Source: Gammaproteobacteria bacterium (lineage in GTDB: Bacteria > Pseudomonadota > Gammaproteobacteria > Enterobacterales > Alteromonadaceae). Taken from it: a stretch of DNA of 37,487 nt. Where the stretch lies: positions 1 through 37,487 of the forward strand of contig NVTW01000022.1 of the NCBI GenBank assembly GCA_002401725.1. The letters are read 5' to 3'. Shown here piece by piece: positions 9,882-11,235 of the stretch (the stretch's first letter is position 1; every line of letters begins with the position of its first letter). Position numbers and translations under genes: made by a program. Below the pieces are notes generated by a model. It worked only from the letters and a program-made list of their open reading frames with translations, was not told the origin of the DNA and made no database searches.

Positions 9882-9913
9882 CAGAATAGTTGATTTAGAG
9901 AGTAAATTTCAGA

Positions 9914-9943
9914 CGAAAAAAAACCAGTCAAAAGACTGGTTTA
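9914..9943 (-). terminator. Rho-independent terminator of the tRNA cluster
   Basis: Minus strand reads AACCAGTCTTTTGACTGGTTTTTTTTCG: stem AACCAGTC/GACTGGTT followed by a T run. Confidence 0.8.
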
Positions 9944-9962
9944 TTCTCTTACTTAAAAGATG

Positions 9963-10039
9963 TGGCGGACGCGGCAGGAGTCGAACCTGCGACCGCCTGG
10001 TTCGTAGCCAGGTACTCTATCCAGCTGAGCTACGCGTCC
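9963..10039 (-). tRNA. tRNA-Arg (ACG), intact, CCA encoded
   Basis: Minus strand GGACGCGTAGCTCAGCTGGATAGAGTACCTGGCTACGAACCAGGCGGTCGCAGGTTCGACTCCTGCCGCGTCCGCCA; 77 nt; all stems pair; loop CTACGAA. Confidence 0.96.
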
Positions 10040-10186
10040 GCGGTCAAGTTTTATTTTATATCTCACTCCGAGATAGCGAACCTTGTTCGTAGCCATCTTA
10101 ACCTGAATAACCTATCCAGTTAAGTGACGGATTCACAATCTAAAAATTTCTTTATACAGCTTTAATAGTAGCTGTTTTTCATTGCA

Positions 10187-10318
10187 TTACCAACAAGAAG
10201 CTATCCAGCTGAGCTTCTTATCCGCAAATAACCTATTATTTATATCTCGGTTGGAGATAGTCCACTATCTTCATTAGAAGAAAAGTGGCGGACGCGGCAG
10301 GAGTCGAACCTGCGACCG
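10187..10318. repeat. Direct repeat copy 1 in tRNA array (5' tRNA-like half, spacer, 3' tRNA half)
   Basis: ttaccaacaagaagctatccagctgagcttcttatccgcaaataacc...tctcggttggagatagtccactatcttcattagaagaaaagtggcggacgcggcaggagtcgaacctgcgaccg; near-identical to 10344-10474, offset 157/156 bp. Confidence 0.85.
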
Positions 10319-10380
10319 AAAAGACTCAGTCGTAGCCAACTCTTTACCAACAAGAAGCTATCCAGCTGAGCTTCTTATCC
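10286..10380 (-). pseudogene. Degenerate/remodelled tRNA-Arg-like sequence
   Basis: 3' half (T arm, acceptor 3' strand, CCA) identical to the intact tRNA-Arg; 5' half is GGATAAGAAGCTCAGCTGGATAGCTTCTTG and does not pair with CGCGTCC; anticodon stem (GTTGG CTACGAC TGAGT) is broken; 95 nt. Confidence 0.75.
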
Positions 10381-10474
10381 GCAAATAACCTTTATTTATA
10401 TCTTGGTTGGAGATAGTCCACTATCTTCATTAGAAGAAAAGTGGCGGACGCGGCAGGAGTCGAACCTGCGACCG
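10344..10474. repeat. Direct repeat copy 2 in tRNA array
   Basis: Near-identical to 10187-10318 with a 1-nt spacer deletion and a C/T difference. Confidence 0.85.
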
Positions 10475-10518
10475 CCTGGTTCGTAGCCAGGTACTCTATC
10501 CAGCTGAGCTACGCGTCC
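10442..10518 (-). tRNA. tRNA-Arg (ACG), intact, CCA encoded (second copy)
   Basis: Same 77-nt sequence as 9963-10039. Confidence 0.96.
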
Positions 10519-10558
10519 GCAATAACCTTTATTTACATCTCGGTTGGAGATAACGAAC

Positions 10559-10610
10559 CTTGTTCGTAGCCACCTTAGTCTGAATAACCTATCCAGCTGA
10601 GCTACGCGTC
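10559..10610 (-). pseudogene. tRNA-Arg 5'-half remnant
   Basis: Minus strand GGACGCGTAGCTCAGCTGGATAGGTTATTCAGACTAAGGTGGCTACGAACAAGG: intact 5' acceptor strand and D arm plus CTACGAA loop, then loss of the 3' half. Confidence 0.7.
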
Positions 10611-10674
10611 CGCAATAACCTATTATTTATATCTCGGTTGGAGATAACGAAATAAATTCGTAAGTAAAATAGAA

Positions 10675-10766
10675 TGGCGGTGAGCGAGAGATTCGAACTC
10701 TCGAACGGATTTAAAGCCGTTACTCCCTTAGCAGGGGAGCGCCTTCGGCCACTCGGCCAGCTCACC
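10675..10766 (-). tRNA. tRNA-Ser (GCT), CCA encoded
   Basis: Minus strand GGTGAGCTGGCCGAGTGGCCGAAGGCGCTCCCCTGCTAAGGGAGTAACGGCTTTAAATCCGTTCGAGAGTTCGAATCTCTCGCTCACCGCCA; 92 nt, long variable arm, loop CTGCTAA. Confidence 0.96.
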
Positions 10767-11000
10767 TATTTATTCTACTTTTAACTGCCACAGTAATTAA
10801 ATATATTAGCTGCCGTTTCAGTGGGTGCGAATATTAATAGATATAAAAAATATGTCAAACAATTTTTTAGCTTTAATGACTGTTTGTTGAGATTTCATCC
10901 AACAAGCTATTTTTTTATACGTTTTATCGGCAAAACCTCGTTAAAAATAGCAAGCAGGAATAAAACAACCTTTAAACTAGCCGTTGAAAAAATGGCAATA

Positions 11001-11040: not shown

Positions 11041-11235
11041 TTAAAAATTACCCGTCTGTGCCTTTTCGTCTTTCTCGGCCTGGATACGCATGTAAATTTC
11101 CTCGCGATGCACTGAAATTTCTTTTGGTGCATTTACGCCAATACGTACTTGGTTACCTTTTACTCCTAAAACAGTGACGGTGACATCGTCGCCAATCATC
11201 AATGTTTCACCAACTCGACGTGTTAATATTAACAT
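11041..11235 (-). CDS. csrA: Carbon storage regulator CsrA
   Basis: 64 aa [52 protein letters not shown]. Confidence 0.98.

Follow-up and report, generated by a model that had tools for sequence, protein, structure and literature searches.

Remodelled tRNA-Arg copies as possible structured spacer RNA in a serV-argV-type operon of the Alteromonadaceae

What are the tRNA-like pieces that lie among the intact genes of a tRNA-Arg array, and are they decaying or kept? The question is raised by contig NVTW01000022.1 of a marine member of the Alteromonadaceae (Gammaproteobacteria bacterium, GCA_002401725.1), analyzed as one stretch of 37,487 nucleotides, which we call the window. The window makes up contig 11 of its assembly, a draft of 3.23 Mb in 67 contigs that is 79% complete and is probably a metagenome bin. 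Its minus strand carries a serV-argV-type operon in which tRNA-Ser(GCT) is followed by two identical tRNA-Arg(ACG) genes with tRNA-like pieces between them; as in this operon type, the array lies downstream of csrA, and the gene order matches csrA-serV-argVYZQ of E. coli. A preliminary description had proposed repeated tandem duplication and decay, or tRNA-like elements kept as processing signals or small RNAs. ARAGORN and Infernal agree with it on the intact genes, and exactly three tRNAs in the array pass both programs (9963-10039, 10442-10518, and 10675-10766, all minus). The remodelled pieces fail the tRNA model RF00005, which requires a complete cloverleaf, at a relaxed threshold as well. 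A bacterial small SRP RNA lies elsewhere in the window, at 2900-2996 on the plus strand. The parts of the array and the basis for each are as follows.

About 11041-11235: csrA, recognized by reading the sequence
10830-10858, minus: likely sigma-70 promoter of the operon (TTGACA, 17 nt, AATATT), from consensus and position
10675-10766, minus: tRNA-Ser(GCT), first gene of the operon (ARAGORN, Infernal)
10647-10661, minus: short SL1-type hairpin ACGAA-tttat-TTCGT, without tRNA-derived insert (sequence)
10630-10646, minus: SL2 hairpin copy 1, TATCTC-caacc-GAGATA (sequence)
10553-10613, minus: 5'-half element 1, in which the tRNA-Arg acceptor 5' strand, D arm, and anticodon-loop sequence form one long hairpin (covariance model, E 2.1e-15)
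10536-10552, minus: SL2 hairpin copy 2, preceding Arg gene 1 (sequence, alignment)
10519-10535, minus: A/U-rich linker from SL2 to tRNA-Arg 1 (sequence)
10442-10518, minus: tRNA-Arg(ACG) gene 1, intact (ARAGORN, Infernal)
10418-10444, minus: trailer hairpin taking in the CCA of tRNA-Arg 1, CCACT..CTTC/GAAG..AGTGG (hairpin scan)
10399-10415, minus: SL2-type hairpin copy 3 (sequence)
10286-10382, minus: chimeric remodelled tRNA-Arg (fails the tRNA model; homologues in loci L005 and L006)
10243-10259, minus: SL2 hairpin copy 4 (sequence)
10187-10225, minus: second copy of the chimera's remodelled 5' half, 39 of 40 bases identical (comparison)
10156-10175, minus: type-B leader hairpin ACAGCT-actattaa-AGCTGT (sequence)
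10076-10136, minus: 5'-half element 2, fold retained (z -2.2; covariance model E 9.5e-14, not independent because its sequence was in the model seed)
10059-10075, minus: SL2 hairpin copy 5, TATCTCg-gag-tGAGATA, preceding Arg gene 2 (sequence)
10040-10058, minus: A/U-rich linker ahead of tRNA-Arg 2 (sequence)
9963-10039, minus: tRNA-Arg(ACG) gene 2, intact (ARAGORN, Infernal)
9921-9942, minus: Rho-independent terminator AAACCAGTC-tttt-GACTGGTTT followed by T8 (sequence)

The promoter assignment has position as its main support; the site at 10858-10830 matches the consensus at 10 of 12 bases, and such sites are as frequent in the region as in shuffled sequence. Each piece of the preliminary description was recovered, with corrected borders for the 5'-half remnant (10613-10553) and the chimeric copy (10382-10286), and with the further copy of the remodelled 5' half at 10225-10187. 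The remnant at 10136-10076, which had been called more decayed, is present and is less decayed than described. The covariance model matches run beyond the two elements, to 10523-10615 for element 1 and 10044-10138 for element 2, and the differences between the two include a TTAAC/GTTAA pairing. The recurring spacer proves to be the TATCTC..GAGATA hairpin (SL2), with four closely similar copies and a diverged fifth at 10075-10059. Over 10187-10474, a unit of 156 bp is duplicated in tandem with 98% matches. Within the chimera, the T arm and CCA of tRNA-Arg are intact, the acceptor stem is broken, the D arm is rebuilt as a AAGAAGCT/AGCTTCTT hairpin, and the anticodon stem is replaced. It is found in three of four congeners, namely, the genome of the window and two others (L005, L006) whose copies are 91-95% identical to that of the window, and one pair of the rebuilt D stem is compensated, being G-C in two species and A-U in the third. 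By these comparisons, the chimera is judged to predate the species split and, as far as seen, to be confined to the genus.

The 5'-half piece reaches much further. A DNA search of 99 relatives yielded arrays with the same pieces in varying number and order, rather than relatives with only clean tRNA-Arg repeats, and a covariance model of the 5'-half piece built from 19 copies has matches in 58 of 399 Alteromonadaceae genomes and 16 of 52 genera at E <= 0.01 (41 genomes and 13 genera at E <= 1e-6, counted from the table). Among 395 genomes sampled from the order, the model has no match outside the Alteromonadaceae under stricter filters that may miss weak homologues. Across many genera of the Alteromonadaceae, the 5'-half piece is a single homologous element. 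Chance can be excluded because the element recurs in many independent genomes, and a collapsed assembly was rejected as the explanation for the class because the same kind of array is present in single-contig relatives (G011, G024, G044, G239, and G305). The element is not essential, since it is missing from many Arg genes within these arrays and from the majority of the family's genera.

The proposed tandem duplication is borne out both by the 156-bp repeat and in the relatives, where the element occurs in up to five near-identical tandem copies, some of them in single-contig genomes. Some arrays hold three to five tandem units without an intervening tRNA (L015, L115, and L136), one relative has five nearly identical 96-nt units, and the likeness of copies has a median of 0.89 within an array versus 0.79 between arrays. 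Rho-independent terminators are also duplicated inside Arg arrays of relatives, between functional tRNA-Arg genes (L010, L119, L136, and L156). An origin by duplication and unequal recombination is well supported by the sequences. The same facts bear on a purely passive account, in which unequal recombination makes partial copies that fold merely as fragments of a tRNA, with no selection on them. We regard this account as possible but on balance doubtful. In its favor are the greater likeness of copies within arrays, the recent 156-bp duplication in the window, the duplication of internal terminators along with the units in relatives, and the occurrence of pieces like these elsewhere in the genome, in several other operons. 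What weighs against it is the fold of the pieces and what stands beside them.

The 5'-half element folds as a long hairpin, one side of which is the former acceptor and D sequence and the other the former anticodon-loop sequence plus a GTTCG segment; SL2 comes next. We aligned 48 distinct copies by MAFFT from sequence alone and scored on this alignment an outer stem, the CGTAGC/GGCTACG stem, the D-loop stem, and SL2. Across these copies, 91.3% of cells are paired, a value in which the D-loop stem is under-counted through a MAFFT gap shift in the genus's own rows, versus 88.3% in shuffles and 31-40% when the fold is slid by 1-3 columns; the outer helix is 98.6% paired. Changes on both sides of a pair occur in 45 cells versus 17.7 in shuffles, and the covariation score is 0.280 versus 0.232, values that none of 500 shuffles reach in either case; kinship among the sequences inflates the both-side counts, and the slid control and the compensated SL2 pairs therefore weigh most. 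Neither the number of pairs with both-side changes nor the number of pair types exceeds that of shuffles in the 48 copies. Part of the fold is inherited, because the CGTAGC/GCTACG pairing already exists within intact tRNA-Arg(ACG), and element 1 folded alone is no better than shuffles (z -1.0). A local hairpin, ACGAAC/GTTCGT, was rejected as the main pairing (92.4% paired versus 98.6%, with the outermost pair failing in 18 of 48 rows) and is a possible alternative fold.

Hairpins without tRNA content hold the same position in relatives (for example, GTGAATG...CATTCAC in L156), and ACGAA-tttat-TTCGT holds the corresponding place after tRNA-Ser in the window, so it is the fold, not the tRNA sequence, that recurs. 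The simple decay that had been suggested does not agree with pieces whose shared fold shows compensated changes from genus to genus and whose place ahead of the tRNAs is fixed. The passive account, for its part, is opposed by these compensated changes together with an outer helix that is paired almost throughout in the different genera, and by the non-homologous hairpins in the same place. The most conserved part of the element is the anticodon-loop sequence, GGCTACGAA. Two candidate roles were rejected: a TadA decoy acting via the kept ACG loop, because ACG lies within a stem in both folds, and boxA antitermination, because the exact TGCTCTTTA is in the element of only two relatives' arrays (L144 and L145) and is absent from the window region.

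The hairpin next to the element tells further against a passive origin, since SL2 has no tRNA ancestry and yet is compensated and fixed in position. With SL2 defined by at least 5 Watson-Crick pairs and a 3' end 13-24 nt from the tRNA, such a hairpin precedes 125 of the 151 Arg genes sampled, against 18.9 in dinucleotide shuffles and never more than 30; the observed fraction describes arrays of this kind rather than the whole family, as the loci were fetched for their resemblance to the array. The distance from its 3' end to the tRNA is mostly 17-20 nt, with a peak at 18-19, and its stems are all compensated (TATCTC, TATCTT, TATCCC, TATCG, CATCT, and others). On the other side of the gene, among the same fetched loci, 59 of 146 Arg genes have a trailer hairpin in which the CCA of the tRNA itself is paired (3.0 in shuffles, which reach at most 6); Arg genes without one mostly have a terminator hairpin next. 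RNase E of E. coli cuts tRNA precursors by entering directly at unpaired regions between the tRNAs (PMC3985628). The linkers show no enrichment for the RNase E motif RNWUU (49 of 92 versus 42.8 in shuffles, maximum 57), and the mean unpaired fraction of the linkers is only 0.64 in the folding model.

We give an even chance to the reading that former tRNA-Arg copies have been reused as structured leader and spacer RNA of the serV-argV transcript, multiplied by unequal recombination, with a role in processing. Retention for structure is supported by the comparisons above, and from the position of the hairpins and linker beside each tRNA we infer a function in the folding and cutting of the precursor. 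The hairpins would fold on their own while the polycistronic precursor is made and could keep adjacent identical tRNAs from mispairing. This would leave an A/U-rich single strand ahead of each tRNA and a CCA-holding hairpin after internal tRNAs, and linker and CCA hairpin together might set the site and order in which endo- and exonucleases separate the tRNAs. The proposal that the elements were kept as processing signals or small RNAs would fit the conservation.

The second half of that proposal, in which cleavage frees the 5'-half hairpins and the chimera as trans-acting sponges or decoys like 3'ETS-leuZ, seems to us unlikely. Fragments of E. coli tRNA precursors do serve as sponges excised by RNase E (PMC5222698), more copies would give a higher dose, and it is the anticodon-loop sequence that is most conserved, with pieces of tRNA-Lys keeping their anticodon loop too. 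However, the elements lack a conserved seed in single-stranded form, the favored fold places the conserved anticodon sequence in a stem, and the loops vary freely. That the pieces are relics of integrative elements with a tRNA gene as attachment site is barely credible: some pieces in other operons of the genome break at the anticodon loop or T loop, typical crossover places of such elements, but the common pieces are tandem 5' halves with their own spacer, not 3' ends, and the array has no long open reading frame such as an integrase.

Judged by sequence comparison, the closest known thing is RtT RNA (RF00391), and the elements are not RtT. Both are tRNA-derived, repeated, and structured, and lie in the transcript of a multi-copy tRNA operon, and the array does consist of tRNA-derived repeats inside a tRNA operon. 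In contrast to RtT, the element keeps the 5' half and anticodon loop, has another fold, and is adjoined by the SL2 leader hairpin. The RtT covariance model has no match in 9900-10800 at E <= 10 and no gathering-level match in the arrays of five relatives. In the E. coli argV-argY and argZ-argQ spacers, the model scores 31.0 and 29.2 bits, under the 45-bit cut-off, and these spacers carry tRNA-Arg 3' ends (K-12, L168, NC_000913.3:2817600-2818900, at 325-452 and 740-850). With these 3' ends and weak RtT scores in E. coli, tRNA-derived repeats in a serV-argV-type operon are of a known sort. The E. coli operon shares the order csrA, Ser(GCU), and Arg(ACG) copies with the array but has four intact Arg genes versus two here, and the spacers have no visible homology. 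The element's fold and set are absent from Rfam, and a literature search for comparable tRNA pseudogenes or spacer elements yielded no relevant work. In Photobacterium phosphoreum, the repetitive tRNA-Pro/tRNA-His cluster likewise has partial, tRNA-like copies beside its tandem tRNA genes. The Pro operon of the present genome (L004) resembles this cluster, whose isoacceptors differ from those of the array and for which we know of no description of a fold conserved across genera. Sponges of the 3'ETS-leuZ type are not tRNA-derived and act via an unpaired seed. They share with the elements a place between or after the tRNAs of one precursor (PMC5222698), whereas the elements have no visible unpaired conserved seed.

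The genome also has remodelled pieces in further tRNA operons, namely, those of Lys, Pro (a tandem pair), Gly (two), and Asn. Its Lys operon has three tandem units of nearly 97 nt, with a T-loop insert in the last, and more copies beyond. The mark of the Lys piece is AAGCCAAGGCTTTTAAC; here, the strand of the anticodon loop forms a stem with a new strand upstream. The motif occurs in 26 of 199 family genomes and 11 genera, in up to nine copies at a spacing of about 102 nt; a reversed control pattern has no match in the 199 genomes, and the motif has none in other families of the order among the genomes sampled. Tandem pieces of this kind stand in tRNA-Lys(TTT) operons at L171 (G000:C40:1-800), L195, and L196. 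Covariation of the Lys element flanks is not claimed (13 of 39 with arms of at least 6 bp versus 6.4 when re-dealt, maximum 13). At L004 (G000:C18, 1598-1885), a tandem pair of pseudo-tRNA-Pro pieces, which have a T arm and CCA and lack the 5' half, sits between tRNA-Pro(TGG) and tRNA-Arg(TCT). Two tRNA-Gly(GCC) pieces at L170 (G000:C23:100-1000) keep the anticodon arm and 3' end, with the T loop replaced by the same insert. A tRNA-Asn copy at L172 (G000:C65:11156-11240), in which the anticodon loop is swapped for about 17 nt, is likely an annotation trap: ARAGORN names it tRNA-Tyr(gta), and its Infernal score is still 43.5 bits. We think it improbable that all of these belong to a family-wide class of tRNA-derived tandem hairpin RNAs spread over several kinds of tRNA operon (those of Arg and Lys in many genera, and in the present genome those of Pro, Gly, and Asn as well). 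Such RNAs would retain the anticodon-loop sequence, concealed by a new stem, and would work in their own right as decoys, sponges, or regulators of processing.

Remnants of tRNA genes are usually skipped as decay. In the present case, the remnants of a single tRNA share their fold in 16 genera, and other tRNAs of the same genome have been remodelled likewise. If the elements act in processing, dead tRNA genes would have been reused as structural parts of their own operon, and the arrays would offer a natural set of variants for how polycistronic tRNA precursors avoid misfolding and get cut in order.
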